From the IMG/VR virus record IMGVR_UViG_3300028581_000047, positions 1 to 59,039 of that record: a DNA stretch of 59,039 nt; one strand, written 5' to 3'. Below the pieces are notes generated by a model. That model did not search any database and had not been told where the DNA came from. It saw only the letters and a list, made by a program, of their open reading frames with translations. Positions 4,847 through 34,249 of the stretch are shown in pieces. The position numbers and the translations under genes were made by a program. The number at the start of each line of letters is the position of its first letter. The stretch's first letter is position 1. The DNA comes from a virus.

Positions 4847-4861
4847 GATGTAGCACCAACT

Positions 4862-7391: not shown

Positions 7392-7657
7392 AAGTTTTAA
7401 GTATTGAAGCGTGGGCAGAAGGGTCTTCTGATGAAGGGGAAGGGATTTCATGGACTTGGAACGCCTGGCACATGATTGGTTCAGTTGAGCCTGTCTCAAG
7501 TGAAGAAGAGGCTGTCAAGGCATTTGAGGATTTCTTTGGGATTCCTTTCAATACGACCGAGTATGAAGTGATTGATGACCAATACAATTACGCTTTGTGT
7601 GTAATTGCGGAGGATTACAGACCTATTTATGCCATTGAATACGGCTCGGAAAATTAA
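7388..7657 (+). CDS. Hypothetical acidic protein (89 aa)
   Basis: This is the last gene of the left block. It starts within the previous stop and ends at TAA 7655-7657, inside the first bases of the left long inverted repeat. It is acidic and Trp-rich at the N-terminus (IEAWAEGSSDEGEGISWTW). No family is recognised. Confidence 0.65.
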   Translation: MKVLSIEAWAEGSSDEGEGISWTWNAWHMIGSVEPVSSEEEAVKAFEDFFGIPFNTTEYEVIDDQYNYALCVIAEDYRPIYAIEYGSEN

Positions 7658-8035
7658 CCGAACCGAGGGGTCTCAAATCGGGGTGGGGTTGTTGCAATTT
7701 GACCACACCCCTGTCTGATAATTACAAATTCAGAAAAACAGGAATCCAATTTGTCTCGCGGGGCTGGGATAGGCAACAGGGGGATGCGGGTTACAGAGGA
7801 AGTAAAACGAGACAAGCGTCTATCTATTATATATAATTATTATATTATATATATTATATATTAAAGAGGTGGGGAGTGTATCAATCTTGCAACAAGTTGT
7901 TTGTATTGCCCAACATAATCTCCTGCCACCCTCTCACGTCCTTACCTGTCCTCTGCAACCCGCATTCGGCTGGACCCCCCAAAAGTCCCGCGAGGCAATT
8001 TGAATCTTTAACTTTTGGCAAAAATTTATTACAAC
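7649..8035 (+). repeat. Long inverted repeat, left copy
   Basis: This segment of about 387 bases recurs in reverse orientation at 33864-34249 with roughly 95 percent identity by eye. Each copy has internal symmetry. A GC-rich arm (TTGTCTCGCGGG at 7751, GATGCGGGTTACAGAGGA at 7783) is mirrored on the other side (TCCTCTGCAACCCGCATTC at 7949, CCCGCGAGGCAA at 7987), flanking a core of about 43 bases that is almost only A and T (7821-7863). The design resembles an origin with an unwinding element, or a recombination or partition site. It holds no convincing gene. It bounds the replication block on the left. Confidence 0.85.
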
Positions 8036-8047
8036 GAGAGTAACAAC

Positions 8048-8245
8048 ATGAAGAATTTGACAGTAACACTAACAAGGGATGAGTTTATCTGCTTGCTAGA
8101 CACAGTAGATTACGTTTTAAAGGACACCATGTACTACACAGATTATGAAGGTACCGACCCTGATAATCTTTACTTGCATGAAAACAACCTCAACGCATTC
8201 CAAGCTAAGGATATTTTAGAGTCGTTTGTCTGGGTAGAAGAGTAA
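8048..8245 (+). CDS. Hypothetical acidic small protein (65 aa)
   Basis: This is the first gene inside the repeat-bounded block. ATG 8048 has only a weak site (ACGAGAG) upstream. The product is acidic with several Tyr-Asp stretches. It is followed directly by a two-hairpin element. No function is assigned. Confidence 0.6.
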   Translation: MKNLTVTLTRDEFICLLDTVDYVLKDTMYYTDYEGTDPDNLYLHENNLNAFQAKDILESFVWVEE

Positions 8246-8251
8246 AGAGTG

Positions 8252-8293
8252 TTGCCCATTATGACAAGTGGGCAATGCCCTGTGCTTTACAGG
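8252..8293 (+). promoter_or_regulatory. Two-hairpin intergenic element, copy 3
   Basis: Hairpin 1 pairs TTGCCCATT (8252-8260) with AAGTGGGCAA (8266-8275). Hairpin 2 pairs CCTGT (8279-8283) with ACAGG (8289-8293) around GCTTT. The flank GAGTAAAGAGT before hairpin 1 and the string GCCCTGTGCTTT are shared with the copy at 9092-9135. It stands before an antirepressor gene. Confidence 0.6.
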
Positions 8294-8311
8294 AATAACT
8301 TGGAGAATGAA

Positions 8312-9079
8312 GTGAGTGAATTTTTTATAGCGATTAAAAAGTACCCAATTGGTTTGGTAGAAGTGAATGCGGTGAATGCTCGTGATTTGTGGACTGAACT
8401 TGAGGTTGGAACTACTTTCAGCAGATGGATTCAACGGAAGCTAGAGGAGTACAATTTCACGCAAGCTGTTGATTTTGTCGAAATTTCCAGTTTTGTCAAA
8501 GACGAGACTCGGTTTGGTGGGAAGCGTAAATCCATCGAGTACATCATCAGTCTCGACATGGCAAAAGAATTGGCGATGGTAGAGAGAACTGACAAAGGCA
8601 AGATTGCCAGACAGTATTTCATTGACTGTGAGCGAAGAGTGAAACTTGCGGATGAAATGGATGCTGTGCGTATCTTGGAGTTGAAGGCATACCTGGATAG
8701 GGTGCGTCGAGCTTTACTGTTGGACACGCCGCACACTTGGGAGAAGATTTACCCTGTTTCATTCTTTGAGGCGATAATGTCCTTGCATGGTCACACGTTC
8801 AACGGGAACAGTTCCACGCCGAGTTATTGTTCAAAGATAATTCGGGATTGGGTGTATCAGATTGTGTTGCCTGGTGAACTTTTGGCGGAGATAGACCGTA
8901 TTCAAGGTTCAGAAAAGAAGCATCAGTGGTTCACACAGCAGGGAGGTCGTCAAATCTTGGCTAAACAGGTCGAGAAGGTTGAGATGCTTGCGTTGGCAGC
9001 TGATTCACGGAAAGATTTTGAGCAGATGTGCAAAAAGGTATTTAAGAAACCGCTACAGCTTGGTTTGAGAGCGATGTAA
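8312..9079 (+). CDS. AntA/AntB-family antirepressor
   Basis: The N-terminal 90-100 residues match the AntA/AntB antirepressor pattern: VNARDLWTELEVGTTFSRWI, then a hydrophobic stretch with IEYIISLDMAKELAMVE and GKIARQYFIDCER. The rest (to residue 255) is a separate helical domain with no clear family. The start is set at GTG 8312, six bases behind GGAG; upstream in-frame ATG codons would run through the hairpin element. Such proteins inactivate phage repressors and allow lytic growth. Confidence 0.8.
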   Translation: MSEFFIAIKKYPIGLVEVNAVNARDLWTELEVGTTFSRWIQRKLEEYNFTQAVDFVEISSFVKDETRFGGKRKSIEYIISLDMAKELAMVERTDKGKIARQYFIDCERRVKLADEMDAVRILELKAYLDRVRRALLLDTPHTWEKIYPVSFFEAIMSLHGHTFNGNSSTPSYCSKIIRDWVYQIVLPGELLAEIDRIQGSEKKHQWFTQQGGRQILAKQVEKVEMLALAADSRKDFEQMCKKVFKKPLQLGLRAM

Positions 9080-9091
9080 GAGTAAAGAGTT

Positions 9092-9135
9092 TATCCTAGG
9101 TGACAGATAGGATACGCCCTGTGCTTTTATGCAGG
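9092..9135 (+). promoter_or_regulatory. Two-hairpin intergenic element, copy 4
   Basis: Hairpin 1 pairs TATCCTA (9092-9098) with TAGGATA (9108-9114). Hairpin 2 is CCTG...CAGG (9118-9135) around GCTTTTAT-like bases. It shares the leading GAGTAAAGAGT and the string GCCCTGTGCTTT with copy 3, while hairpin 1 differs completely in sequence but not in shape. Confidence 0.6.
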
Positions 9136-9187
9136 AAATCGGTACACTTTCGTGTATTGACATTTAACTTAAATTGGAGTAACAAAA

Positions 9188-9583
9188 ATGAGCGCATTAC
9201 AAAACCCAGATTTATCGCTTGAAAACTTGATTGACGACTTTGCTCACTTGCACATTTACCTACAAGACGCACAAAAACGTTACGATGACATGAAGAAAAA
9301 GTTGGCTGTGGTTGCAAACTCTGTGCAGTCAAAAGAACGGTTCAGGTTGCATGGGTTGAAGTACCAGCTGGAATTTAGCGAGTCACCGCAGAAAGCGGTG
9401 ATTCCTGAAGAAGTAACAAGCGGGGTGATTTATGACTTATACGGGATTGGGGCTTTCGCGCCCTCTGTTAAGTTCATCAAGGAGATTGAGAATCTCAGAA
9501 CCCGCGAAGTTGGATTTTCTGCCTCCATTCTTAAGTTGAAGTGGGATTCCAGAAGGTTGCTTAACGCTACTAAGAACTCTTAG
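9188..9583 (+). CDS. Hypothetical protein (131 aa)
   Basis: It starts at ATG 9188 after TTAAATTGGAG. The first 50 residues are helical and may form a short coiled coil (IYLQDAQKRYDDMKKKLAV). No conserved domain is recognised. Confidence 0.7.
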   Translation: MSALQNPDLSLENLIDDFAHLHIYLQDAQKRYDDMKKKLAVVANSVQSKERFRLHGLKYQLEFSESPQKAVIPEEVTSGVIYDLYGIGAFAPSVKFIKEIENLRTREVGFSASILKLKWDSRRLLNATKNS

Positions 9584-9651
9584 TTGAGCTTTAGGGAGTT
9601 CGTGGAAGCCGAAGGTATCTACTTCCTCGTACTCTTCATCCTGTAGTAAAT

Positions 9652-9684
9652 ATAGCATATTAGCTCCAAAAAGCGGTATGCTAT
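9652..9684 (+). promoter_or_regulatory. Inverted repeat, possible operator or hairpin
   Basis: ATAGCATA (9652-9659) is mirrored by TATGCTAT (9677-9684), 17 bases apart, in the 126-base gap before the next gene. The second half resembles a -10 box. It could be an operator or an RNA hairpin. Confidence 0.4.
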
Positions 9685-9709
9685 CACATTTTAAATCGGA
9701 GCAATAAAA

Positions 9710-10237
9710 ATGAGTAAAAATGTAATTCACTTTCCTGTTAAAATAGCCACCCAAACCGAACCGAAGCAGTTCGGGAACGCTTATGGGTTAGACTTGAGTG
9801 GTAGTAAGCACGAAATTCGTAAAGACATGTTTGAGCAGTACAAAGATTACGACTTCCGCAAAGCCTTGGAACGGTTCCCTGAGCATGGGATGGGATTGCA
9901 GCGTGACAAACACTTTGTCATCAATCACAACATTACCCTAAGAGATTATGTAGGTGCGGCACACTTTGCGTTAGATTTGAAAGGTGATGTAAAAGCGCAT
10001 GACGATTTAATGGGGATTTATTTTACACTGAAGGAAGCAGGGTTCAAGAAGTACCCAGTAAAACACATCAACCCGCAGTTAGTCGGGTACGTCATAAACT
10101 TGGTGGTAGACAGGGACTCAAGACCTGGCATTGGTGTCCCGCCATTCTATTACCTTTGCGATTCTTACTTCGGGCCGTTTCAGGCAAGTGGCTGGTCAAA
10201 CAATGCCGATTATGAACGAGCTAGTATAGGTCGTTAA
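9710..10237 (+). CDS. Hypothetical protein (175 aa)
   Basis: The start ATG 9710 is backed by AAATCGGAG. The protein is soluble and mixed in charge, with no motif I can name. It sits just upstream of the replication genes and ends before a perfect 8-bp hairpin (CCCCACAG / CTGTGGGG, about 10244-10265). Confidence 0.7.
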   Translation: MSKNVIHFPVKIATQTEPKQFGNAYGLDLSGSKHEIRKDMFEQYKDYDFRKALERFPEHGMGLQRDKHFVINHNITLRDYVGAAHFALDLKGDVKAHDDLMGIYFTLKEAGFKKYPVKHINPQLVGYVINLVVDRDSRPGIGVPPFYYLCDSYFGPFQASGWSNNADYERASIGR

Positions 10238-10289
10238 ACAATAGCCCCACAGGTTTCACTGTGGGGTGTCTCAATCCTTGGAGATACAA

Positions 10290-10958
10290 ATGATAGAATT
10301 TAAGCGTGATGTTTATGATAGTTTGGTAGAATACGAACCCGAGTCAAGACCTGTTCGAGGAGCTAGGCTCTACACAACAATTTGTACTGATTGTGGAAAA
10401 GAGTCACGGTATCACCGTCACACGAATCTTGCTAAAAAGATTTGTACTTGCTCTACTTCAAAAATCGAGTTGTTGATTTACGGTGAGATGTCCAGAACGC
10501 TCGAAGAGTGGGCGGAGGTTGAACCTTCCATCAATGTGGGTAGTGCAAGGGTCAGGGCGAGTAATAGACGGCTAGGAAGACGAAATTGCACCGATGCTCA
10601 GGTTTTATTTGGGTATGGAAAGAAATCTCCTGCATTGCGGTTGCAAGTGTTACCGACGAATGATTCACCTGAGTGGATTAGGACGTTATCGGAAGAAATT
10701 ACCAGAAACATGATTAAGTTGCCATTGATTGAAGCGGTAGTGTTAGCCGTGAAAGTGGCATCACGGGAAAGAGATTTTGGAAAGTTAGTTCGAGAAGACC
10801 TTTCTATGTACACAAAGTCTGGCATTAAGTTCACAGACCCAGAAGGCACATCATTACCCGAGTTGTTGGAGCAGCTTGGTGATTTAGATGCCCTGAAAGA
10901 TTATTTACTGGGTGATTTGAGTCTTACAGAAGCAAAGGTAAACAGTTTTTTCATTTAA
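10290..10958 (+). CDS. Hypothetical protein with Cys cluster (222 aa)
   Basis: ATG 10290 follows TTGGAGATACAA; an upstream in-frame start lies in the hairpin region and is less likely. Residues about 31-55 contain CTDCGKE and, 18 residues later, CTCS, forming a likely zinc-binding knuckle near the N-terminus. The middle part has many Arg and could contact nucleic acid. The location directly before the primase-helicase suggests a replication or regulation role, without proof. Confidence 0.65.
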   Translation: MIEFKRDVYDSLVEYEPESRPVRGARLYTTICTDCGKESRYHRHTNLAKKICTCSTSKIELLIYGEMSRTLEEWAEVEPSINVGSARVRASNRRLGRRNCTDAQVLFGYGKKSPALRLQVLPTNDSPEWIRTLSEEITRNMIKLPLIEAVVLAVKVASRERDFGKLVREDLSMYTKSGIKFTDPEGTSLPELLEQLGDLDALKDYLLGDLSLTEAKVNSFFI

Positions 10959-10973
10959 TTTAGGGGAAGTAAG

Positions 10974-11336
10974 ATGGTTGGTGTAGTTAAAACACGGTTG
11001 AGAGAGGGGGCGGTATTGGCACTCACTAATCCGCTACATACAAAAGTGTTAGAGTATTTTGTTGTAGTGGCGTTGGCAGGTGAAAAAGGGTTAACGATTG
11101 AGGACAGTGATGGAAGGCGGTTTAGTGGTTACACACACAGCACTCTTTGGGTACACCCTCAGGTGATGTTTGAGGCGTTAGAGCCTAACCAGGTAGGATG
11201 TAACAAGGACGGCTACTTCTTGTCAACCAGAATCCACGTCAATGACAATTTGAGAATCCACTTCATGGATTGGTTAGAGAAAGAGAACGTTGAGTGTTTC
11301 AATAAGCTCCCGTTCAAACTTAGAAAAGGGGTGTGA
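10974..11336 (+). CDS. Hypothetical protein (120 aa)
   Basis: The gene starts at ATG 10974 behind AGGGGAAG and ends immediately before the primase-helicase, so the two are likely co-expressed. The product is soluble and mixed in charge, without a recognised domain. Confidence 0.65.
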   Translation: MVGVVKTRLREGAVLALTNPLHTKVLEYFVVVALAGEKGLTIEDSDGRRFSGYTHSTLWVHPQVMFEALEPNQVGCNKDGYFLSTRIHVNDNLRIHFMDWLEKENVECFNKLPFKLRKGV

Positions 11337-11337
11337 T

Positions 11338-14217
11338 ATGTCGGCAGCCCCAGTCCCCGTCTTTTATTACCAAACGCACGACGAGCAACACCAAACATGG
11401 AAGGTTGCGCCTTACACTGATTACGATGAAGTCATTAAGACCTGTGCTTTTCATGCTGGCGTTTATTCTTTGTCAAAAGCCCCGACGGGTGATGACGAAA
11501 GTGACTTAAAAGTCAGGTACAAAGGCAGTCTTGTTATTGATATTGACAACAAGTCAGTTGAGACAGGTAACATCAACATTGCGATTGACCAAAGTATTGT
11601 TGACGTTAGGGCAATACGAAAGTACCTTGATTTGCTTGGGGTTAACCCCAAGCAGGTTGGATTGTACATCTCAGGTGGTAAAGGTTTTCACATCATTATT
11701 CCGTTAGGTTTGATGGGTGGTATTGCTTTAAACAGCTTGCCGCACATTCATAAAAAGATGGCGATGACGATAAAAACGCGGACTGGCGTTGAAAGTATTG
11801 ATTTTTCTTTGTTTTGTAAAAGGAAGGGGAAATTACTCCGCACACCCAATCACAAGAGAGCTGGAAATGGTAATTACAAAGTTCAAATCACATGGGAAGA
11901 AATGGATGGGTTGGATGCTGAAACGTATTTCAACTTATGTCGAGAACCACGACCTGTATTTGCTCTTGAAGATCCTGAAATAGTACCTGCATTATCCGAC
12001 ATGTTTCAGGACGCATTGTTAGACGTCCGTTCTGAGGACGAACAATCTACGTTAGGTAAAACCGACCCTAAGCATTTTTTAGAGTTAGGTGATGGTGAAA
12101 TACCTAAATGTATCAAGAACTTATGCGGATACCAAAACATAAGGGAGAATGCAAGTTCTTTCAATTATGCAAAAATGGATGTGATACGGTTCTTGAAAAA
12201 TAGTAATCTTACTGCGGAAAAACAGGAAGGTGTAATTCAGGAGTTCTGTAATAACTTTCACAGTGATAGGCATGGCAGTCCGCAAGAAAGGTTGCGTGAA
12301 GTTAGGTCAGCAGAGCGGAGTTTAGAAGGTACGGGGTTTGATTGTAGTTTGGCTGCAAGGCAGTTTAGTACGAATCCCTGTACTGGATGCCCTGTCAAAG
12401 TTTCTCAAGTTGTGGAACTCAATGAGTCACACAAAATTGTTGAAATCGGTAACTCATATCATCGAGCGACAGTAAAGAAAAATGAGGACGGGGCAATTAG
12501 TAACTTCATTCTTACGCCGATTAAAGTATCGTATGAAGTATCTGAGGAAGGCTACACCACTGATCAAGTTTACACGTTTCGGGTAGATTATCTTCGGAAG
12601 GATTTACGACCTGATTTGTGTACCATCAAACTAGAAAGTTTCTTAACAAAAAGTACCTTTTCCACAGCAATGAGGCAATTGCCACAGGCATGTTGGACAG
12701 GGAGAGACGATGACGTAAGTCATTTAACAACAAGGGTGACAAGCCCAGAAAGTATGCTAGGAGTTGAAAAAGTCATGCCAGTAAAAAAACAAGGGATGTC
12801 AAAAGTCCTGGATACCAACAGGGGTATTGATGAGTGGTGTTGGGTTCAGAAGGGCTGGAGTTGGAATGGTAGATTGCCAGGTACAATGGAGTACCGAGGA
12901 CCTAGACAGTTTGGCGATACAGGTGAACAAATGACGGCTGTGTTGGATATGCGGAAAGTATTGCCCGTACCAACCCCTGCAACAGAAAAAACACTTCAGG
13001 CGTTGTTATCCAGTCGTGGGTTGGAAGAATTAGCGATTCAGCTAGGCTGGAATGCGGCTTGTTGGGTTAAACCGCAGTTACAAACAGGTGAGTATGGCGA
13101 TATGTTTCCTGTCCTGCTTGTATATGGTGATGCAGGTTCAGGTAAGTCTGAAATGACCAAGAACTTCAGCATTTTGGGTGGGAATGATGGCATCAATAAC
13201 GCCACAATCAACATCTCAAATAGCACAGGGTTTTTCTTGCAATCTGAAGCATCTTCAACAACCACCGTACCAAAATTGTTTGATGAGTTTAATCAGGCAA
13301 AGATGAAACCGCAGGATTACCTTCGGTTACGGGACGTTATTAAGTCTACAGGGACGAAGATGGCGATGGGTAAGGGTCGTGTAATCGGCTCTGGTGGTAA
13401 CTCACAAGTTGCAACAGAAATCACCGTCTGTACAGCCCCAATAGCCCTATTGGGTACAGCACAGAATCAGGAGGAAGAAATTATCCAGCGGAGTATCATC
13501 CTTTATTTAGACAAGGGCGATATTTTGAACAACCCAGATACTGCGTTCATAGAAGCTCACAGGCAGGTACTGAAGAATAAAAAGGATTTGATTCCTTACG
13601 CTCGGATGTTGTTGGAAAAAACGCTTATTCTCACTCCAGAAGAGTTGTTTGAAATGTGGGAATCCTCTGCATGGGTTAGCGATACAGTGACTGACCAACG
13701 GACAGCCAAGGCAGTACGAGTTATCCATATTGGGCTTCAGTTAGCTTATGCGGCGTTCAAGGAAGCAAAGTGCAGTAATGACACATTGAAAGGGGTGGAG
13801 CGTTTGTTGAAGGAGGGGCTACCTGCGTATATGGTGAATTCTCGGTACAACTATTTGTCGAATGACGGGCGGTCTGAGATTGACCACACACTCAATCATA
13901 TCCTGTTGATGGCGACGTTAGATAATGGACGTGGTGAGAACTATTTGCGTGAGGGGGTACATTTTACAACTGACGAAGTAGCGGTGCATCTTAAAATCAA
14001 TTCGGCATATATTTCGTTCGTAAGAGTAGCCAAAGACATGCAATGGATGCTAGAATTTACGAACGCCAAAGCGTTCATTCAGGCTTTAAGTGGGCAGAGT
14101 TACTACTTAGGAGCTGGTAAAGCGCGAGGCGTTCCAACCCCCCATGAGTGGCATACATTCAGCATTCAGGGGCTTTTAGACAAACACATCGACGTAAGAC
14201 ACCTCGGTGCGAAGTAA
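11338..14217 (+). CDS. Primase-helicase with AEP-like primase domain
   Basis: This large two-part replication enzyme (959 aa) should unwind the fork and lay down primers. The N-terminal part has the archaeo-eukaryotic primase pattern: VIDID around residue 66, SGGKGFHIIIP near 112-122, and a later basic motif with LLRTPNH near 168. A Cys-rich linker (NPCTGCPVK) follows near 345. The C-terminal half holds a P-loop ATPase: GDAGSGKS near 597-604 and LFDEFN near 647, with a downstream sensor region. This layout is like the D5/primpol-helicases of phages and plasmids. ATG 11338 is chosen because it directly follows the preceding stop; its upstream site (AGGGGTG) is modest. Confidence 0.8.
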   Translation: MSAAPVPVFYYQTHDEQHQTWKVAPYTDYDEVIKTCAFHAGVYSLSKAPTGDDESDLKVRYKGSLVIDIDNKSVETGNINIAIDQSIVDVRAIRKYLDLLGVNPKQVGLYISGGKGFHIIIPLGLMGGIALNSLPHIHKKMAMTIKTRTGVESIDFSLFCKRKGKLLRTPNHKRAGNGNYKVQITWEEMDGLDAETYFNLCREPRPVFALEDPEIVPALSDMFQDALLDVRSEDEQSTLGKTDPKHFLELGDGEIPKCIKNLCGYQNIRENASSFNYAKMDVIRFLKNSNLTAEKQEGVIQEFCNNFHSDRHGSPQERLREVRSAERSLEGTGFDCSLAARQFSTNPCTGCPVKVSQVVELNESHKIVEIGNSYHRATVKKNEDGAISNFILTPIKVSYEVSEEGYTTDQVYTFRVDYLRKDLRPDLCTIKLESFLTKSTFSTAMRQLPQACWTGRDDDVSHLTTRVTSPESMLGVEKVMPVKKQGMSKVLDTNRGIDEWCWVQKGWSWNGRLPGTMEYRGPRQFGDTGEQMTAVLDMRKVLPVPTPATEKTLQALLSSRGLEELAIQLGWNAACWVKPQLQTGEYGDMFPVLLVYGDAGSGKSEMTKNFSILGGNDGINNATINISNSTGFFLQSEASSTTTVPKLFDEFNQAKMKPQDYLRLRDVIKSTGTKMAMGKGRVIGSGGNSQVATEITVCTAPIALLGTAQNQEEEIIQRSIILYLDKGDILNNPDTAFIEAHRQVLKNKKDLIPYARMLLEKTLILTPEELFEMWESSAWVSDTVTDQRTAKAVRVIHIGLQLAYAAFKEAKCSNDTLKGVERLLKEGLPAYMVNSRYNYLSNDGRSEIDHTLNHILLMATLDNGRGENYLREGVHFTTDEVAVHLKINSAYISFVRVAKDMQWMLEFTNAKAFIQALSGQSYYLGAGKARGVPTPHEWHTFSIQGLLDKHIDVRHLGAK

Positions 14218-14236
14218 CCTTAAATTGGAGCATTAA

Positions 14237-15733: not shown

Positions 15734-15741
15734 TCTAACAA

Positions 15742-15775
15742 AGGTATACCCCACAAATTGCTTTGTGGGGTATAC
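15742..15775 (+). promoter_or_regulatory. Strong 13-bp hairpin after the SNF2 gene
   Basis: GTATACCCCACAA pairs perfectly with TTGTGGGGTATAC around ATTGCT. No T-run follows, so it may act as an mRNA stabiliser, processing site or factor-dependent terminator instead of a simple intrinsic terminator. It stands 15 bases before the kissing-loop leader of the next gene. Confidence 0.5.
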
Positions 15776-15789
15776 TGCCCCACGAGTTT

Positions 15790-15904
15790 TTAGATTTGGA
15801 TTATAGCAGGTCTCATAAATCTAAGAGCTTAACGTTCTGCCCTTGCCTATTTGGTGCCTGCTATCACCGAGTTCGCAAGGGTTCTATATTTTCGGAGCAA
15901 TACC
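15790..15904 (+). ncRNA. Kissing-loop leader RNA, copy A
   Basis: The 115 bases before ATG 15905 can form three helices and a loop-loop contact. P1 is TTAGATTT (15790-15797) with AAATCTAA (15817-15824). A conserved unpaired linker CTTAACGTT (15828-15836) follows. P2 is CCCTTGC (15840-15846) with GCAAGGG (about 15874-15880). P3, inside P2, is GGTG (15853-15856) with CACC (15865-15868). The 8-base loop of P3, CCTGCTAT, is the exact complement of ATAGCAGG (15803-15810) in the P1 loop. The same fold with different paired bases precedes the antirepressor at 18061. No known family is recognised. It is probably a cis-regulatory element. Confidence 0.75.
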
Positions 15905-16630: not shown

Positions 16631-16678
16631 GCATCACCCTTTACACAACATTCATTTTAAAATAATTGGAGAAGTATC

Positions 16679-17341: not shown

Positions 17342-17533
17342 CCCAGATGTTCACTGCCGAACAGGCAGCTTAGGAAATAATTCCTGCCCGTTCTTCCGAG
17401 GGTTAAATCGGAAGACTCCCACTGAAGGGTCATAGAGAATCTTTCATTGGTAGTTAAACTGCCAACTAACTGGAACTGGGGAGTTCCTCGCGTTAGGTGA
17501 CTTTCCCTGCGGTAATCTGTGGGGACTTATATT

Positions 17534-24141: not shown

Positions 24142-24151
24142 TTTACTATTT

Positions 24152-24177: not shown

Positions 24178-24196
24178 ATATTTGGAGATATTTGAG

Positions 24197-25775: not shown

Positions 25776-25776
25776 A

Positions 25777-26460: not shown

Positions 26461-26860
26461 AGCTAAAATCAGTAAAGTTTTAAAACTTTACGCAGCTAAG
26501 AACAAGAGTTTAGATCATCGTTTCGTAGATAAAACCCAGGCAATGTCTGGGTTTGTTACAGCACCCCCTGGAGACTATATGTTGTTGACTCCTGGCGGTG
26601 CTATTTTAATTGAAGCTAAAAGCACAAACACAGGCAGGGGCTTATTATCGTTAGCACACAAAAATAAAATACAAATTGCATCACACAGAATGTGGGCAAG
26701 AGCAGGGCATCCGTCGTTGTATCTTTATATGGATTTAGAGAGTGATGTCATTGAGTGGCACCTCGGAACTAACGTTGTCGAGAAGATTAACAAACCATTA
26801 TTCATCGGCAAAAGTGCAGCGATGCTGAGTTCATTAAGTGCAATCGTGGAGGATTTATGA
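26432..26860 (+). CDS. PD-(D/E)XK Holliday-junction-resolvase-like nuclease
   Basis: The 142-residue protein shows the nuclease core: GDYMLLTPGGAILIEAKST, giving Asp near 48, Glu near 61 and Lys near 63 (E-x-K). The flanking helices and strands fit RecU/archaeal-type junction resolvases or VRR-like nucleases used by phages to resolve recombination intermediates. The start is uncertain: TTG 26432 has GGAG eight bases upstream, while ATG 26405 lies deep inside the exonuclease gene without a site. The overlap with the exonuclease is 29 bases. Confidence 0.75.
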   Translation: MAKNNGKALEAKISKVLKLYAAKNKSLDHRFVDKTQAMSGFVTAPPGDYMLLTPGGAILIEAKSTNTGRGLLSLAHKNKIQIASHRMWARAGHPSLYLYMDLESDVIEWHLGTNVVEKINKPLFIGKSAAMLSSLSAIVEDL

Positions 26861-26967
26861 TTGAACATTTTCTTCACAACACAGCCCATTTCTACACGTT
26901 TGTAGTTGCATGGGGTGTAGTGCTTGTACTGATGCTTATTTTTGATATTAAGAGATTAAACAAATGA
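26857..26967 (+). CDS. Small single-pass membrane protein (36 aa)
   Basis: A short frame fits exactly between overlapping stops and starts (ATGA on both sides) behind GGAGG. Residues 12-29 (FYTFVVAWGVVLVLMLIF) form a membrane segment, followed by a short basic tail. The function is unknown. Confidence 0.65.
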   Translation: MIEHFLHNTAHFYTFVVAWGVVLVLMLIFDIKRLNK

Positions 26968-27980
26968 TTACCATTTTTAGTGACCCACACCTCGGGTTGA
27001 ACCGCACGAGCCATACAACTCCTGCTTCCCGTGAGCGTTTAAAGGAAGCGTTGTACAAGCAGGCAAAAGCGTTAGCACCCTTTACTATTAAACCTCTGAC
27101 AGACGTGTACTGCCTGGGCGACTTATATGATACTTACTGGTCAGACGCTAACACGGTTAAGCAAGGGCTAGAGATTTATCAGCACGTTGACGTATGCTTG
27201 ATTGGAAACCATGACTTTTCCCAACGGGCTAATGCAACATCCGCTTTAAGACTTTGCCATGACATCATGGAGGATGCTTGGGATGAACCAAGTGAGGCTT
27301 CGGTCAAAACTACCCATGCCGAGGGGTTTTCTATTCAGTATGTGAACCACAAGATGACCCAACAGTTATTTGATGCGTCATTAGAAAAAGTAAGGAAGGT
27401 AGGCGGTGTTTTATTCCTGCACTGCAACTTTGACAACGGGTTTGCAACCGACGAAGCGAGTTTAAACTTGAGCCGAGCGCAAGCTGAAGCGTTACTGGAA
27501 AAAGTAGACTTAGTGTTTTCTGGACACGAACACACAAGCGCAGCACACTTTAATGGTCGTTTGATTATGACAGGGAACACACACCCGACTTCATTCTCAG
27601 ACATTTCAGATAAGTATTCGTGGCACGTTGACAAAGATTTAAAAGTGACCAGGGAGTTGATTTGGAGTACGAACTACGCTGTAAAACTGGATTATGCCCA
27701 TTTACTCGAAGGGTCTTGCGATTTAGTCCACATGGAGTTCATCGAGATAGTAGGACAAGCAGAACGTGCTGAACTGCCTAAAATTGCCCGTGCAGTTGCC
27801 AATCTCTGGAAAACATGTCCCAATGCTTACATGATTAAAAACTCTGTCACTTGCGAGCAGTTTGATGCTGAGAAAGTGGACGAAGTTCACATTGCTGATG
27901 TGATTACTACGTTATCCGCAGAGCTATCCCACACGAAGTTAAATACATTGTGGAAACATTATGTGGGGCGAGTGCAATGA
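26964..27980 (+). CDS. SbcD-like metallophosphoesterase nuclease subunit
   Basis: The calcineurin-type phosphoesterase motifs are complete: FSDPHLG (6-12), CLGDLYD near 51-57, IGNHDF near 72-77, LHCNFDNG near 152-159 and FSGHEHT near 191-197. Together with the SbcC-like gene 180 bases downstream it should form an SbcCD / T4 gp46-gp47-like complex that processes DNA ends and hairpins during recombination-dependent replication. It starts at ATG 26964. The 338 residues are typical for the phage members. Confidence 0.9.
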   Translation: MITIFSDPHLGLNRTSHTTPASRERLKEALYKQAKALAPFTIKPLTDVYCLGDLYDTYWSDANTVKQGLEIYQHVDVCLIGNHDFSQRANATSALRLCHDIMEDAWDEPSEASVKTTHAEGFSIQYVNHKMTQQLFDASLEKVRKVGGVLFLHCNFDNGFATDEASLNLSRAQAEALLEKVDLVFSGHEHTSAAHFNGRLIMTGNTHPTSFSDISDKYSWHVDKDLKVTRELIWSTNYAVKLDYAHLLEGSCDLVHMEFIEIVGQAERAELPKIARAVANLWKTCPNAYMIKNSVTCEQFDAEKVDEVHIADVITTLSAELSHTKLNTLWKHYVGRVQ

Positions 27981-28171
27981 TAACGTATCCTGAGGTGTTG
28001 GAACGCATGGGTGTGACGGAAATGGCATTAGATATGGCGATCTATTCGGGTCGCCTACCAAAACCGAGAGAAACTGTTTTTGGGGTGCATCGTTGGGCAG
28101 CAAGAAAACTTGAACCACACTTGGTTAACTGGGAAGCTCAAATTAAGCGGAGAAATAAAAATGATACATAA
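27977..28171 (+). CDS. Small HTH protein between sbcD and sbcC (64 aa)
   Basis: It overlaps the SbcD-like stop (ATGA) and runs 11 bases into the SbcC-like gene. Residues 3-45 (TYPEVLERMGVTEMALDMAI, then GRLPKP) resemble AlpA/excisionase-type DNA-binding domains. It may regulate the operon. It is similar in kind, though not in sequence, to the small protein at 20770. Confidence 0.6.
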   Translation: MITYPEVLERMGVTEMALDMAIYSGRLPKPRETVFGVHRWAARKLEPHLVNWEAQIKRRNKNDT

Positions 28172-30269
28172 CCTTACATTAAAAAACTTCAAACAGCACA
28201 CAAACTTGGTTGTGGGGTTCACGACTGGACTTAATGTTATCACAGGTGAGAATGGTGCAGGTAAATCAACCATCCTGAAAGGCATTCTGTACGCCCTATT
28301 TGGGGCAGCGGCTGCGGGTAAAAAAGAACATTTATCTACATGGGGGACTGAGGATAAAATGGAAGTCTCGTTAACGGTAGATGTTAACGGCAAAACATTA
28401 GAAATCTTGAGGTCTTTCGATAAATCAGTGATTTACAGTGGAGACGATTTGCTTGCATCAGGTCATACGCCCTGCACTAAGTTTATTGAGCAAGAATTAG
28501 GGCTTGACTACAAGCAGTTCAAGCATTTACTCTATGCAGGTCAGGGCGAAACCCAGTCACTTTTGAGAATGGGTGCAGCAGACTTACAAAGGAAAATTGA
28601 GGTCATCACAAAGATGGACGGTCTCGACGCAATCATAACCCTAATTTCGGCTGATTTAAGCGAACTCACGGGTAAGTTATCAGGAATGGAAAGCTCACCT
28701 GATATTCCTGCTTACGAGCTACGATTAGCGGAACTTACAGAACTGGCAGAAAGCCAGCAAATTAACGTAATGGAGACAGAGAAAATGGCTACACAAACTG
28801 AGTTAATGTTGAAAAAAGAACAAGAAAAATTAGACATCGTTTCTAAAAAGTTGTCTAAAGCCAAAGCAAGTAAAGCTGCAGAACAAACTATCACAACTTC
28901 TATCGACAACACCTTGGATGAACTTGAAGTACACGCTGAAACAGAACCCAAAGAATCTGCAAAACTGCTCGCACTTAAAATTACCGCCGTTCAAGACGAT
29001 ACGGACAGCAAACTGAAAAAATTAAAACAGTTTAAGTTACAGGACAATGCAGTTGCTCAGGCTCAAGAGAATGTTGATGATGCTGAATGTAGTCTCAGCT
29101 CGTTAATGGCTGCGGAAGGTGAGTTTAAAAAGTACGCTGAACTTTTAGAAAACTACAAATTCAGTCAGTATGCGTTAGACACTGCTCAAACTAAACTACG
29201 TCAAGCAGAACAACTTGAGGTTAACTGCCCAACCTGTGAAAGACCTTTTGAGAACAGCACAGCGCATTTGGAAGCACAGGATAGAGCAGCTATTGCCGTC
29301 AAAGAAGCTCGACTCAAGTTTGGCTTGAACAAACGTGCTTTTGAGGACTTCAAAGCGAGTGTATCTCCTACCCGTGCAGAGTCTTTTGACGGCATAAAAA
29401 AACGTTGTGAACTCCATGTTCTGAGCTGTGAGGCTGCGCTGCATGCCGCAGTTGCTGCTATCCGCACTCGTGACACAAACATTGATGCCGACTCACTTGG
29501 CTTTATGATTTCTGCACAAAAAGATGCCCTAGCAGACTTTGAACGCTCACACGGCATTGCAGTATTGTGGGAGAAGAAACAAGATCAGCTTATCTCAATG
29601 CTTGCACGTTTGTCGGATGACTTGGGAGACCTTGATCCATCTGACTGTGAATGGGACGATGACGACCTTGAAGACGCAATGCAAAGTGTCAAAGAACTAC
29701 AGGAAGAATACCGTGTCAAAAGCATGGAGATGGTACAGGCTAAGTCAAACTTTCGTGAGACTACAGCTGCCCGTAATTCGGGCTGTGCAGACTTAAAACG
29801 TGGCGAAGAACTTGCTGAAAGACGTGATGCTTTAGAAAAAGATGCCGCTTTACGCAAAGACCTCCAAAGTTATTTAAGAGCGAACCGTGCAAGAATGTTA
29901 GACAATACATGGAAAGGTATCACGAGTTTGACTAGCTCCTACGTTTCAGAAATCACTGAAGGGCTTATTCGGGAGTTGGAACGTGACTTATCAGGAGAAT
30001 TTACGGTAAGAGAAGGCGAACACGTTGTACCTGTCTCCGAACTGTCAGGCGCAAGAGAAGCAATCGTTGGCTTGGGTTTGAGAATTGCGTTGGGTAAAGC
30101 GTTCTTTGGAGGTTCAAGTTTCTTGATGTTGGATGAAGTAACAGCGGCTTGTAGTGAAACAAATGCAGCGAACGTGGCGGGTACGTTACAAGGGCTAGGA
30201 ACCCAGATAATTATGGTGTCACACAGACAGGGCGATGCGTTAAATGCTGCAAACATTATTATCCTTTGA
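28161..30269 (+). CDS. SbcC-like SMC-type ATPase
   Basis: This 702-residue protein has the Rad50/SbcC plan: Walker A GENGAGKST (29-37), a long first coiled coil, a zinc hook CPTCERPF near residue 356, a second coiled coil, the signature region VSELSGAREAIVGLG, and Walker B FLMLDEVTAA near 653. It is the ATPase partner of the SbcD-like nuclease. ATG 28161 follows CGGAG; an upstream in-frame start lies inside the small HTH gene. A clear terminator follows the stop. Confidence 0.92.
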   Translation: MIHNLTLKNFKQHTNLVVGFTTGLNVITGENGAGKSTILKGILYALFGAAAAGKKEHLSTWGTEDKMEVSLTVDVNGKTLEILRSFDKSVIYSGDDLLASGHTPCTKFIEQELGLDYKQFKHLLYAGQGETQSLLRMGAADLQRKIEVITKMDGLDAIITLISADLSELTGKLSGMESSPDIPAYELRLAELTELAESQQINVMETEKMATQTELMLKKEQEKLDIVSKKLSKAKASKAAEQTITTSIDNTLDELEVHAETEPKESAKLLALKITAVQDDTDSKLKKLKQFKLQDNAVAQAQENVDDAECSLSSLMAAEGEFKKYAELLENYKFSQYALDTAQTKLRQAEQLEVNCPTCERPFENSTAHLEAQDRAAIAVKEARLKFGLNKRAFEDFKASVSPTRAESFDGIKKRCELHVLSCEAALHAAVAAIRTRDTNIDADSLGFMISAQKDALADFERSHGIAVLWEKKQDQLISMLARLSDDLGDLDPSDCEWDDDDLEDAMQSVKELQEEYRVKSMEMVQAKSNFRETTAARNSGCADLKRGEELAERRDALEKDAALRKDLQSYLRANRARMLDNTWKGITSLTSSYVSEITEGLIRELERDLSGEFTVREGEHVVPVSELSGAREAIVGLGLRIALGKAFFGGSSFLMLDEVTAACSETNAANVAGTLQGLGTQIIMVSHRQGDALNAANIIIL

Positions 30270-30294
30270 TTACCAACAGGTAGGTTGGATTATT

Positions 30295-30323
30295 GAGCTA
30301 GCCGCAGGGCTGGCTCTTCTTTT
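30295..30323 (+). terminator. Intrinsic terminator after sbcC
   Basis: GAGCTAGCC pairs with GGCTGGCTC around GCAG, followed by TTCTTTT. It closes the replication/recombination operon. Confidence 0.8.
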
Positions 30324-30356
30324 AAGTAGTAACCATTATGACAACTTGAGGTGAAT

Positions 30357-30611
30357 ATGATACATACCGAATGGCGTAGCACAACGCCAACAACTATCGA
30401 AGTTGATTTAGTTAATCAGCCTGCACACTACAAATCAGGTAAGTTTGAGTGCATTGATGTTCTTGAAGACACAATGCCAGAAGAAGCGTACCTTGGCTAT
30501 CTGCAAGGTAATGTAACGAAGTACCTCTGGCGGTGGCGGGACAAGGGCGGGGTGCAGGACTTACAAAAGGCGCAGTGGTACTTGAATAAACTCGTGGAGA
30601 AAGTGGGATGA
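30357..30611 (+). CDS. DUF3310-family protein (84 aa)
   Basis: Residues 21-80 match the DUF3310 pattern: VNQPAHYKSGKFECIDVLE, GYLQGNVTKYLWRWRDKGG, LQKAQWYLNKLVE. These small proteins are very common in phages near nucleotide metabolism or replication genes. Their function is not established, although a nucleotide-kinase-related annotation is often seen. ATG 30357 is preferred over GTG 30351 because of its spacing from TTGAGG. Confidence 0.85.
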   Translation: MIHTEWRSTTPTTIEVDLVNQPAHYKSGKFECIDVLEDTMPEEAYLGYLQGNVTKYLWRWRDKGGVQDLQKAQWYLNKLVEKVG

Positions 30612-30805
30612 TGAAAATTAAATTCTGCACAGGTGACGGAAAAGGCTTCGTATGCAACAGTAGTGAGATTGAGCAATTTTATCCGCTAGACTTAACTCAT
30701 ACTATTTTAGAGTTCAATGGCGGTAGTAAAAAAGTGGTTGTAAATAATGATATGCGACAAGTAGCAAGCTCTATTTTTCACCATTGGCGGTTGATAAATG
30801 ACTGA
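30608..30805 (+). CDS. Hypothetical small protein (65 aa)
   Basis: It starts within the DUF3310 stop. The product is soluble without a motif. Its last codons (ATGACTGA) begin a 75-bp stretch that recurs at 31574-31648, so its 3' end marks a duplication boundary. Confidence 0.6.
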   Translation: MMKIKFCTGDGKGFVCNSSEIEQFYPLDLTHTILEFNGGSKKVVVNNDMRQVASSIFHHWRLIND

Positions 30806-30870
30806 ATCGAAGGAATTAAAAATGACAACTAAACACACGACTGCGCCTTGGATACTGCACAAATTAAGCG
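30796..30870 (+). repeat. Direct repeat, first copy of a 75-bp duplicated gene start
   Basis: This segment is nearly identical (two or three mismatches) to 31574-31648. Each copy holds the end of one gene (TGACTGA), the ribosome site GAAGGAATT and the first 15-17 codons of the small protein whose full version starts at 31600. The segment between the copies contains a truncated antirepressor. Confidence 0.8.
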
Positions 30871-30938
30871 TTGAAATGGAACGCATTGACGGTGACGCTG
30901 AAAGATACGCCGAAATGGTCGCAAACTTAAATGAATGA
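30822..30938 (+). CDS. Chimeric small protein (38 aa)
   Basis: The first 16 residues (MTTKHTTAPWILHKLS) are the same as the start of the protein at 31600. The remaining 22 are unrelated and acidic (ERIDGDAERYAEMV). It looks like a fusion made by recombination within the duplicated start. Whether it is functional is doubtful. Confidence 0.45.
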   Translation: MTTKHTTAPWILHKLSVEMERIDGDAERYAEMVANLNE

Positions 30939-31059
30939 TGACGACGAAAGCGGTTGGGGCTATGACGGCATCGACGATGATGCAGAACATGACTTATTCA
31001 TTAGCTGCCTTTCTACTAATGAATCACAAGAACAAGATTTAGGAGTGCAAAATGATTGA
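30931..31059 (+). CDS. Very acidic small protein (42 aa)
   Basis: This short acidic frame (NDDDESGWGYDGIDDDAEH) begins in the end of the chimeric gene and overlaps the start of the antirepressor by eight bases. There is no good ribosome site, and it depends on coupling. Low confidence. Confidence 0.4.
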   Translation: MNDDDESGWGYDGIDDDAEHDLFISCLSTNESQEQDLGVQND

Positions 31060-31459
31060 AGTAAAACAAGCAGTAATCGGCAGTGAAAATGTGAGCTGGG
31101 TATCAGCGCGTGATTTGTATGTAGGGCTAGGATTGCGTAAAACCAACTGGTCAACCAACTGGTCAAGATGGTCGAAAGATAACATTGAAGAAAATCAATT
31201 TTTCGTGCAAGGTGTTGATTTTGTTAAACTCGTCACAGCGACGAGCGCAGAAATCCCCAACCCACCTAAAGATTATGCCATCACTATTCAAATGGCGACA
31301 CACTTATCAATGATGGCAAAAACAGTTAAAGCGCATGATTATCGCAACTACTTTATCGAGTGTGAAAAACAACTAAAGCAGCCGCTTTCACATCTTGAAA
31401 TCCTTGTGCAATCTGCAATGGCATTAGTCGAACATGAAAGAAAAATGAAAGCGTTATAA
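31052..31459 (+). CDS. Truncated AntA-type antirepressor (135 aa)
   Basis: The N-terminal antirepressor domain is complete (SWVSARDLYVGLGLRKTNWS, TIQMATHLSMMAKTVKAHDY, RNYFIECEKQ). A coiled-coil start follows (LSHLEILVQSAMALVEHERK) and then the frame stops at TAA 31457. Directly behind it, another frame continues the expected C-terminus. The protein is therefore cut short by a deletion plus frameshift. It may still bind its partner through the N-domain. ATG 31052 has AGGAG upstream. Confidence 0.7.
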   Translation: MIEVKQAVIGSENVSWVSARDLYVGLGLRKTNWSTNWSRWSKDNIEENQFFVQGVDFVKLVTATSAEIPNPPKDYAITIQMATHLSMMAKTVKAHDYRNYFIECEKQLKQPLSHLEILVQSAMALVEHERKMKAL

Positions 31460-31583
31460 GACTTCCGCATCACCCGATGAGTATTACTCGATTTCAGGCT
31501 ATGCAGGTTTGCGCGGCGTGAATGTAGATGTTCACAGGGCGGGGCGGTTAGGAAAGGTGGCGACACGGTTCTCAAATGACTGA
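31458..31583 (+). pseudogene. Detached C-terminal remnant of the antirepressor
   Basis: In the +1 frame relative to the truncated gene, 41 codons read SASPDEYYSISGYAGLRG, then VDVHRAGRLGKVATRFSND and a stop. This resembles the C-terminal domain typical of phage antirepressors. There is no start codon. It marks the other side of the deletion. Confidence 0.6.
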
Positions 31584-31648
31584 ATCGAAGGAATTAAAAA
31601 TGACAACTAAACACACGACTGCACCTTGGATACTGCATAAATTAAGCG
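31574..31648 (+). repeat. Direct repeat, second copy of the 75-bp duplicated gene start
   Basis: Partner of 30796-30870. Here the duplicated start runs on into the complete 92-residue gene, so this is probably the ancestral copy. Confidence 0.8.
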
Positions 31649-31878
31649 GTGAGATAAGAACGCAAGACAACTTAAAAGTGATAACGGACATAAATTACAG
31701 ACTTAGGGATGGGTGTGGCGAAGCCAACGCAAAACTTATCGCCGCCGCACCTGATTTGCTTGCTGCTTTAATCGCTTGTGATGAAGCAATGGAATATATC
31801 AGCGAGTACGACATCCCCCTGACTTTGCAGCAACAGGTAAAAGACGCAATCGCTAAAGCAACGGGAGAATTAAAATGA
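31600..31878 (+). CDS. Hypothetical phage protein with LIAAAPDLLAAL motif (92 aa)
   Basis: The start at ATG 31600 is behind GAAGGAATT. Residues 4-20 (TKHTTAPWILHKLSGEI) and the LIAAAPDLLAALIACDEAM stretch near 51-69 are typical of a widespread family of small phage proteins of unknown function. The stop overlaps the next start. Confidence 0.75.
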   Translation: MTTKHTTAPWILHKLSGEIRTQDNLKVITDINYRLRDGCGEANAKLIAAAPDLLAALIACDEAMEYISEYDIPLTLQQQVKDAIAKATGELK

Positions 31879-32522
31879 CACCTGAAAAATTGCGTGCATT
31901 GGCTATGAAGTTAATGTCAGTGCCAGCAAGTCATGATGAAGCTGTTATTGACAAATGGCTTGAACAAAACCAGCCCGAACTTGTTGTGGGGCTTAGTGAT
32001 GAGCAGATAAAGGACTTTTCGCAGCTGTACGGTCTTACAGTAACGCAGCAGGTTCGACTAAACGTGAATCTCACCAACTTCCTTAAAACCCAAACCTTCT
32101 CACAAGTCCGCGCTTTTGATGATAGTGAGTTGTCTGAAAAGTACATGACTCTTTATGATGACTATCAGTCACTTTTGGTTGATAAAGCAAACACAAGTCA
32201 GTTTGAGCCTAACTGGGATGATGTACCCGTCACAGCAAAGTATGTGCGAGTAGTTTTATCATATTTGCGTGAAGATTTTATGTCGGTTTCGAGCGATGAG
32301 GTTCTTGCACAATTTGAACGTCCGAAGCCAAAAGTTACAGTCGGACAGGTGTGGAAATTTGTTGCAGATGACCAAGATTTTACGGTTTCAGAACTTGCGG
32401 CTGTATGGGTAATTGATAAATTTGTAGGCTGTATCGGCGTTAAGAATGCTTTTGATGAATCTTGCTTTTATTCGCATGAGGATTTCCTCGCTAAATTTGA
32501 GAGAGTTTCAAGTGATGGATAA
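31875..32522 (+). CDS. Hypothetical protein (215 aa)
   Basis: It is coupled by ATGA to its upstream neighbour. It is acidic and helical, with two segments ending in similar words (LAQFERPKPK and LAKFERVSSDG near 151 and 206), hinting at an internal repeat. No family is recognised. Confidence 0.65.
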   Translation: MTPEKLRALAMKLMSVPASHDEAVIDKWLEQNQPELVVGLSDEQIKDFSQLYGLTVTQQVRLNVNLTNFLKTQTFSQVRAFDDSELSEKYMTLYDDYQSLLVDKANTSQFEPNWDDVPVTAKYVRVVLSYLREDFMSVSSDEVLAQFERPKPKVTVGQVWKFVADDQDFTVSELAAVWVIDKFVGCIGVKNAFDESCFYSHEDFLAKFERVSSDG

Positions 32523-32712
32523 TTTTGAGGTTTACACAGCAAATGGTCAGTACCGAAAAGTGTTTATTGACTCTTGTTTCAAAGAATTAGAACGGGCAGT
32601 AGCTTTACAGGCTATTGCTCCATTAACACCCTGCCAAGCATTTGTACTAGATGCTTTACAGGACGAGTTTCAGAAGTATTTGAAGGAGGCAGCAGATGCA
32701 AATAACAGCTAA
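32515..32712 (+). CDS. Hypothetical small protein (65 aa)
   Basis: It starts at ATG 32515 inside the end of the previous gene and overlaps the next gene's start. Residues 32-62 are helical. No motif is recognised. Confidence 0.55.
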   Translation: MDNFEVYTANGQYRKVFIDSCFKELERAVALQAIAPLTPCQAFVLDALQDEFQKYLKEAADANNS

Positions 32713-33085
32713 AGAATTCTCGGATAAACACAACATAAAATACGTCACGGTAAACAAACGCATCCGCGAAAGACGTATACTTTGTCGGGGCTACCAGAAA
32801 ACCTGTGCTATCGGGGGTTTAAGTCGTGTTTTTGAAGAAGCAGATTTACTCAAAGCAGTAAGTGAGTTTAAAACCAGACAGGAAGGTGAAGTAACCCTTC
32901 GGGAATACTGTGCGGAAAAAGGTATCAAGCACTCTACCCTGTACAATCATGTAAAAGATAACTATGTCAGGCAGTATGGTCTTGTTATCACTTCTGATAC
33001 GTCAGGAAGAAAACAGATTTTGTACAAAAGACAAGACTTAGACAAGTTAAGAGAACGTGCTTACCCGAGGAGGGTTATAAAATGA
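32696..33085 (+). CDS. Tandem helix-turn-helix protein (129 aa)
   Basis: Two similar HTH-like units are visible: ITAKEFSDKHNIKYVTVNKR (3-22) and VTLREYCAEKGIKHSTLYNH (67-86). The rest is basic. It is most likely a DNA-binding regulator. GGAGG lies 7 bases upstream of ATG 32696. Confidence 0.65.
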   Translation: MQITAKEFSDKHNIKYVTVNKRIRERRILCRGYQKTCAIGGLSRVFEEADLLKAVSEFKTRQEGEVTLREYCAEKGIKHSTLYNHVKDNYVRQYGLVITSDTSGRKQILYKRQDLDKLRERAYPRRVIK

Positions 33086-33270
33086 TGAATTTACAAAACT
33101 TGAAGCAAACAATGTCTTCCCTTGAGATTGCAGGGTTGACAGGTAAAAGACATTCCGATGTTTTAGAAACTATCCGAAATGTGTTTTCTGAAGGGGGTAT
33201 TTTGGCGGCGGAATTTACCGCTGCGAGAATTGTGCGGGGAAAACTATTGATTGACGAACACATGAGGTAG
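33082..33270 (+). CDS. Truncated Rha-family N-terminal fragment (62 aa)
   Basis: Residues 9-35 (QTMSSLEIAGLTGKRHSDVL) match the N-terminal DNA-binding part of Rha regulatory proteins, as in the fragment at 18834. The full C-terminal domain is missing. The start overlaps the HTH gene's stop. It could be a small regulator or a relic. Confidence 0.6.
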   Translation: MMNLQNLKQTMSSLEIAGLTGKRHSDVLETIRNVFSEGGILAAEFTAARIVRGKLLIDEHMR

Positions 33271-33274
33271 AAGC

Positions 33275-33829
33275 ATGAAAGTTAAAATCAGACAAGAAGC
33301 AGGGTACGAATGGGCGTTAATGGGTATGTCCTTTTCTCACTTTGCTGAAGATCAGCCTGTCGATGATTGGTGGGCAGTGCAAAAACCCAAAGCCTTCCTC
33401 CGCGCAGAAAAATTAAAGGATAAAGACGGCGGTCATAACAAGTTTCTTGAAAGCATCCAAGTATGGGTCGAAATTAAGGCTTCTCGGGCGTTCTGGTCAG
33501 AGTTTGATACCTATAGAGCAGGTGTGACGAAGCAAAGCACTAGCACGATGCACACACTATCAAAACGCGCTCCCTTACATTCAGACTTTGAAGAGGGTAC
33601 ACCTAAAGAAGTATTCATTGATTTCCTGCGGCATTTTGCACAGCATCATCATGACATAGTTACGTTGAAGAGTGGGCTTCCTGAGGGGTTCTTGCAACGG
33701 CGAATGGTTTGTACGAACTACAAGACTATCAAAGGCATTGTAGCCCAGAGAAAAGCTCACAGGTATAAACCCTGGCGAGTGTTCATTGAGGCTCTAATGG
33801 AGCAACTGGAGCATCCTGAGTTAATGTAA
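33275..33829 (+). CDS. Hypothetical protein (184 aa)
   Basis: This is the last gene of the repeat-bounded block. It contains SRAFWSEFDTYRAGVTKQST near 69-88 and YKPWRVFIEALM near 165-176. The Trp, Tyr and Arg pattern slightly recalls ThyX-type thymidylate synthases, but the RHR motif is absent, so I make no assignment. ATG 33275 has weak AGGTAG upstream. A terminator follows. Confidence 0.65.
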   Translation: MKVKIRQEAGYEWALMGMSFSHFAEDQPVDDWWAVQKPKAFLRAEKLKDKDGGHNKFLESIQVWVEIKASRAFWSEFDTYRAGVTKQSTSTMHTLSKRAPLHSDFEEGTPKEVFIDFLRHFAQHHHDIVTLKSGLPEGFLQRRMVCTNYKTIKGIVAQRKAHRYKPWRVFIEALMEQLEHPELM

Positions 33830-33836
33830 ACCCAAG

Positions 33837-33865
33837 ACCCACTGTAAAAGGTGGGTTTTCTGTTT
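33837..33865 (+). terminator. Intrinsic terminator at the end of the replication block
   Basis: ACCCAC pairs with GTGGGT around TGTAAAAG, followed by TTTCTGTTTG. It ends rightward transcription just before the right inverted repeat. Confidence 0.8.
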
Positions 33866-34249
33866 GTAATAAATTTTTGCCAAAAGTTAAAGATTCAAAT
33901 TGTCTCGCGGGACTTTTGGGGGGTCCAGCCGAATGCGGGTTGCAGAGGACAGGTAAGGACGTGAGAGGGTGGCAGGAGATTATGTTGGGCAATTCAAACA
34001 ACTTGTTGCAAGATTGATACACTCCCCACCTCTTTAATATATAATATATATAATATAATAATTATATATAATAGACAGACGCTTGCCTCGTTTTACTTCC
34101 TCTGTAACCCGCATTCCCCTGTTGCCTATCCCAGCCCCGCGAGACAAATTGGATTCCTGTTTTTCTGAATTTGTAATTAAAAAGACAGGGTGTGGTCAAA
34201 TTGCAACAACCGCACCCATATTTGAGACCCCTCGGTTCGGTTAATTTCC
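33864..34249 (-). repeat. Long inverted repeat, right copy
   Basis: Reverse complement of 7649-8035, with about 20 differences by eye over roughly 386 bases. It keeps the GC-rich mirrored arms and the long AT-only core (about 34035-34078). It ends five bases from the repB stop. Together the two copies flank a 25.8-kb block exactly at gene boundaries. It may be a second origin-like or recombination site, and recombination between the copies would invert the block. Confidence 0.85.

Follow-up and report, generated by a model that had tools for sequence, protein, structure and literature searches.

A pair of inverted repeats around the replication genes

The stretch of DNA analysed here (the window) is the whole of the IMG/VR virus record IMGVR_UViG_3300028581_000047 (59,039 bp), in which two copies of an element, here called element A, lie in inverse orientation: IR1 at 7649–8035 on the plus strand and IR2 at 33864–34249 on the minus strand. 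Between them, a block on the plus strand (8048–33829) encodes antirepressors, a primase, an SNF2-type helicase, a ligase, a family A DNA polymerase, an exonuclease and SbcD/SbcC-like proteins. Both copies are intergenic and noncoding. IR1 is located between an open reading frame (ORF) ending at 7657 and a gene starting at 8048, and IR2 between the end of the early operon, directly beyond its intrinsic terminator (33834–33859, plus strand), and repB (34254–35324, minus strand), which encodes a Rep3-family plasmid replication initiator (Pfam Rep3_N, 2.7e-37; Rep3_C, 3.1e-19). The initial annotation placed the repeats exactly at the borders of the replication block. They do flank the replication genes, but the border is less sharp than this implies, as an antirepressor and further early genes in the same orientation are also found left of IR1.

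In a BLASTN comparison of the window with itself, 33864–34247 paired inversely with 8034–7651 at 96.9% identity over 385 positions (E = 0), the longest identical run being 90 bp. The inverted pair is thus real, and the coordinates given for it previously are accurate to within about 2 bases. Each copy constitutes an imperfect interrupted palindrome with a single shared centre for its arms, which lie at 7744–7800 (outer box CCAATTTGTCTCGCGGG, inner box GATGCGGGTTACAGAGGA) and 7949–8005 (TCCTCTGCAACCCGCATTCGGCTG ... TCCCGCGAGGCAATTTGAAT) on the plus strand in IR1, and at 33893–33949 and 34098–34154 on the minus strand in IR2. The 148-nt loop contains a run of A/T only, as had been reported, which we measured at 41 bp in each copy (7825–7865, plus strand; 34033–34073, minus strand). 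These two cores are the lowest-GC spots of the window and have the composition of an A/T-rich unwinding region. To call the arms mirrored around the core is an approximation: the arms are inverted and have a common centre, but the core is off-centre, in IR1 24 bp from the left and 83 bp from the right arm. The palindrome scores were 17.9 for the arms of IR1 and 22.5 for those of IR2, compared with a best score of 17.0 across five locally shuffled windows. Single-strand folding of the copies gave z-scores of −5.0 for DNA and of −5.8 and −6.3 for RNA, which none of 100 dinucleotide shuffles equalled.

A third, diverged locus and conservation of the core

Two sibling records extend the window. 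The first, IMGVR_UViG_3300027970_000036 (G001), is 99.99% identical over window 33950–59027 and supplies terminase, portal, protease and capsid genes beyond it. The second, IMGVR_UViG_3300028581_001859 (G003), overlaps the 42-bp tandem repeats at the right end of the window (58913–59039, plus strand) and continues round to window position 1 (G003:31649–31775 corresponding to window 1–127, and G003:32143–32262 to window 117–236). Putting together these contigs from different records, with G003 joined on paper, the phage map appears to close as a circle of about 90.5 kb. At this junction, approximately 370 bp present in G003 are missing from the window (window 117–127 vs G003:31649–32262), a deletion or an insertion bordered by short direct repeats, CAATAGGATGC.

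With IR1 as the query, the sibling records yielded a match at G003:30221–31146, a third and diverged locus of the element. There, a 666-bp unit is perfectly duplicated in tandem with a period of 658, and every unit has 115-nt inverted arms, 91 nt of them at 100%, together with an A/T core. This is element B, with copies at G003:30151–30558 and G003:30809–31216 (89.05–90.12 kb on the circle). It falls beyond the limits of the framed block and belongs to the early region, shortly before window position 1. The map thus carries four copies of the element at three loci, and IR1 and IR2 are not a special pair, the same element occurring elsewhere in the genome. The framing of the block by IR1 and IR2 is partly incidental, given the further, doubled copy that the frame does not enclose.

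Alignment of A with B showed 36 of 37 columns of the A/T core to be identical (0 of 1000 Markov sequences scored as high), followed by the inner arms (20/26 and 22/26) and the outer arms (20/28 and 16/26), whereas in the right spacer 30 of 75 aligned positions were kept, with gaps. RNAalifold, applied to both A copies and B, predicted 78 pairs, 10 of which were altered on both sides with pairing retained; these conservation and covariation counts stem from two independent lineages only, A and B. Since the core is nearly invariant, the spacers have diverged and ten pairs covary, both the core sequence and the complementarity of the arms look constrained, although hairpin-templated correction of palindromes could likewise keep the arms complementary. 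Among non-Watson-Crick arm pairs, G-T was not favoured over A-C; because a G-U preference is missing, a palindrome acting at the DNA level is more likely than one acting as RNA. The diverged third locus in the same phage, the conserved core and the covarying arms bear out the earlier proposal that this is a site with a job.

The ORF ending at 7657 has its stop codon within the stretch shared by IR1 and IR2. IR2 therefore carries that ORF end as well, which suggests that IR2 was copied from IR1. The split between A and B was probably earlier, and the tandem doubling of B, the copies of which are 100% identical, presumably recent.

Assembly and orientation of the repeats

That one of the two copies might be an assembly artefact was not borne out. 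G001 stops inside IR2, exactly 126 bases past the last base separating its IR2 from IR1, which looks like the signature of an assembly with k = 127 meeting a repeat; the break point thus supports the second copy independently in the G001 sample. In the window itself, where the longest shared run is shorter than k = 127, the copies are separable at this k-mer length, the contig is unbroken through both of them, and in the assembled contigs nothing pointed to a mixed orientation. At window 33994, G001 has the base of copy 1 (T in element orientation), and its two copies are more alike than those of the window; either gene conversion or a mutation private to the window copy would account for this.

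A probable phage-plasmid related to Lanavirus-type phages

Joined through the sibling records, one replicon carries terminase, portal and capsid genes as well as a Rep3-type RepB, iterons and ParA. The iterons (22 bp, 4.8 copies, 35417–35522, plus strand; TRF, 100% matches) lie between repB and the gene for a ParA-like partition ATPase (35678–36313, plus strand; PHROG 164, 3.1e-43) and likely form the plasmid-mode origin. Because of RepB, iterons and ParA, we read the phage as most probably a phage-plasmid of the Rep3/ParA type. The closest relatives of its RepB are plasmid proteins of Methyloprofundus (42.8%), followed by Azotobacter (38%) and Methylotuvimicrobium (37%), all gammaproteobacteria, and from this similarity we would offer a methanotroph-like host as a weak guess. 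RepB was not found in the 25 related records searched, a set that held no positive control.

The homologues of the DNA polymerase, terminase and primase point to the Pseudomonas phages Lana, UAntarctica and PMBT3 and to phages like Vibrio phage SHOU24. In Lana and UAntarctica, as in the window, the early/replication operon is directed at the end of the late operon, and SbcC is the gene closest to where the two meet. Such phages share with ours the three homologues and the convergence of the early/replication operon on the late operon, but among those scanned neither a comparable repeat pair nor a long palindrome was found. Long palindromes upstream of the terminase are patchy among the relatives, most of which have none above background. 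One relative with 39% terminase identity (G012; L109–L112) contains an interrupted palindrome with 210-nt arms (contig 37160–37737), 6.4 kb upstream of the terminase and unrelated in sequence; another (G041; L165) has 46-nt arms upstream of the terminase, weakly above background, and a third (G009) AT-rich 32-nt arms at background level. A universal origin of the phage family was rejected, as palindromes clearly above background occurred only in the first of these and weakly in the second.

Searches for the element itself in 50,697 phage records and 72,556 plasmids found no copy apart from the siblings, and neither did the exact motif scans of IMG/VR, which returned the siblings, a chance match in coding sequence (L139) and a low-complexity A/T tract (L167). 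The exact motif scan of the genome collection was empty.

Several further features of this phage were observed. Antirepressor/Bro-N genes are unusually numerous, with at least seven (window 4034, 8249, 15851, 18061, 24113 and 31052; G001 1647), and a 781-bp tandem duplication with 99.2% identity (window 4173–5718) takes in part of an antirepressor gene. Downstream of parA, an interrupted palindrome (window 36505–36607; arms of 27 nt, loop of 49, score 20.1) is a possible centromere or terminator. The structural region contains an HNH/homing endonuclease-like gene (phrog_559; L006:11768–13690) adjoining the capsid gene. In addition, noncoding sequence before tRNA-Met contains a type I-F-like CRISPR repeat (window 17349–17376; Rfam CRISPR-DR4, 45.1 bits vs a gathering cutoff of 35) that stands alone, with no array; we take it to be a candidate RNA-based anti-CRISPR of the solitary repeat unit kind.

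Alternative explanations for the repeats

Several alternatives start from the shape of the pair. Exchange between IR1 and IR2, in the manner of the 2-micron plasmid or a res site, would flip the 25.8-kb block, and long inverted repeats at 97% together with the copy-1 base in the second copy of G001, as gene conversion would leave it, are what such a recombination site might show. Yet searches of the records covering the map (G000, G001 and G003) found neither Phage_integrase (PF00589) nor Resolvase (PF00239), while the controls rang and a host enzyme is conceivable; the assembled orientation is that of Lana and UAntarctica, the copies are resolvable and the contig continuous, and a further copy lies outside the frame. 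We therefore rejected an invertible switch, and with it the inversion previously envisaged, and consider a recombination site of any such kind very improbable. A hairpin telomere, which had also been raised, was discarded since the ResT/TelK protelomerase (PF16684) was not found in the same records and the sibling records read through the palindromes into a closed circle rather than ending there. Nor is there support for left and right parts having been joined around the module, as the block and the left part are collinear with the relatives. Of the earlier interpretation, the functional site is therefore supported, and the inversion, telomere and joined-parts readings are not. As improbable as a recombination site is a parS-like partition centromere. 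Repetition and A/T richness do occur in plasmid centromeres, and the ParA gene is only 1.4 kb from IR2, but IR1 and element B are far from parA, centromere-type direct repeats are lacking, and the 88-aa ORF downstream of parA had no Pfam match.

Two other explanations are unlikely, though less so. The element might be a small mobile hairpin that spread in the phage, either MITE-like or a non-autonomous palindromic repeat of another kind, with the framing by IR1 and IR2 accidental or composite. In MITEs, TIMEs and TIME-COMPs, inverted MITE copies may bound a composite DNA block (PMC13367494). Like these, our element is a short noncoding palindromic repeat with inverted copies bounding a block; its copies are multiple and all intergenic, and their position is not conserved in most relatives. 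Unlike them, it has no terminal inverted repeats (the unit ends, AAATTAACCG... and TTGTAATAAA..., differ) and no target-site duplication (the flanks of the two A copies and of the composite differ), on which grounds a MITE proper was rejected. Furthermore, a Y1 transposase was not found on the map (DDE transposases were not searched), the element has no copy outside the siblings in the collections scanned, and the block, being collinear with the relatives, did not arrive as a transposon. With similarly low probability, the element could act in transcription or as RNA, its long hairpin at operon boundaries serving termination, antitermination, RNase III processing or a small RNA. The RNA folding z-scores, the compensatory changes in the arms, the position of IR1 as the entire 390-bp leader of the replication operon and the A/T core as a natural promoter site, with one 10/12 sigma-70-like match (7809–7837), would fit such a role. 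Against it, neither element type matched Rfam even at E ≤ 1 and the arm pairs have no G-U bias, so that a known structured RNA was rejected; promoter matches were no more frequent than in shuffles, and IR2 lies in the opposite sense to the early operon, behind an intrinsic terminator that already ends it.

A putative lytic replication origin

The presence of the repeats is confirmed, and for their role an origin-like function is most likely, though unproven. We tentatively favour a phage lytic replication origin or initiator-binding element that was amplified to several sites. On this view the map has four copies of a noncoding control element that acts as double-stranded DNA, IR1 and IR2 being two of them. 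The inverted arm boxes, AATGCGGGTTGCAGAGGA and AATTTGYCTCGC, would be bound by a phage initiator, which would bend the DNA or extrude a cruciform; the pure A/T core would melt, and the phage primase, helicase and polymerase would load there. The original site may be the B locus, where the early region starts. Element A would have arisen from it by duplication before being copied again, in inverse orientation, to the repB side. The outcome would be redundant start sites or fork-stalling sites on both sides of the replication genes. The phage has primase, helicase, polymerase and ligase genes of its own, which counts for an origin. The inverted boxes, which are conserved between A and B, are candidate initiator-binding boxes. 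Around the circle, cumulative GC skew is lowest at approximately 86–90 kb, where element B is found, and highest at approximately 34 kb, at IR2; the minimum near element B is only suggestive as a sign of an origin.

A number of observations weigh against this proposal. The extremes of the GC skew coincide with divergence and convergence of transcription and are hence not independent evidence. We identified no initiator whose binding motif is known, and iteron-like direct repeats were not found inside the element. The phage likely already has a plasmid origin at the repB iterons, and most of the relatives searched appear to be without a long palindrome upstream of the terminase. Moreover, conservation of the A/T core may in part be cheap, given that its exact 29-mer recurs within the long low-complexity A/T tract of an unrelated phage (L167). 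An origin nevertheless fits best among the readings considered, at the level of function deduced from sequence.

Known viral origins offer two comparisons, both by way of analogy. Herpes simplex virus (HSV) replicates from three redundant origins, in which protein boxes in inverted arrangement flank an A/T spacer, and two of these origins lie in inverted repeats (PMC12543377). Its OriS and OriL resemble our element in being palindromic, in the inverted boxes flanking an A/T spacer and in the several redundant copies; the differences are that no UL9-like protein was identified here, that the element measures 260–400 bp with arms of up to 115 nt, and that it resides in a phage and is unrelated in sequence, so that the likeness is no more than an analogy. 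For Bacillus phage SPP1, which has a pair of origins containing an A/T unwinding element, it was proposed that forks stall where the initiator is bound at one of the two, a site suggested to serve the theta-to-sigma switch (PMC6316719). SPP1 oriL and oriR would thus share with our element the multiplicity of origins per phage, the A/T unwinding element and the proposed fork-stalling site, whereas the direct repeats of SPP1 are bound by gp38 and our element has inverted boxes, with no gp38-like gene identified. A bolder version, which we consider improbable, would be a tailed phage-plasmid with herpesvirus-style redundant palindromic origins, the original B plus two inverted copies flanking the replication genes, that leaves plasmid mode, run from the repB iterons, for lytic mode; IR2, beside the plasmid origin, would be the switch or a fork barrier.

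The long palindromes persist although this phage encodes its own SbcCD-like nuclease. Even if they are a mobile or regulatory hairpin, their sequences clearly define a family of elements in an uncultured phage. Should the element prove to be a lytic origin, a single phage would possess, in addition to a separate origin for the plasmid state, several inverted palindromic origins that are redundant, and the switch of phage-plasmids from plasmid to lytic replication would become directly testable.

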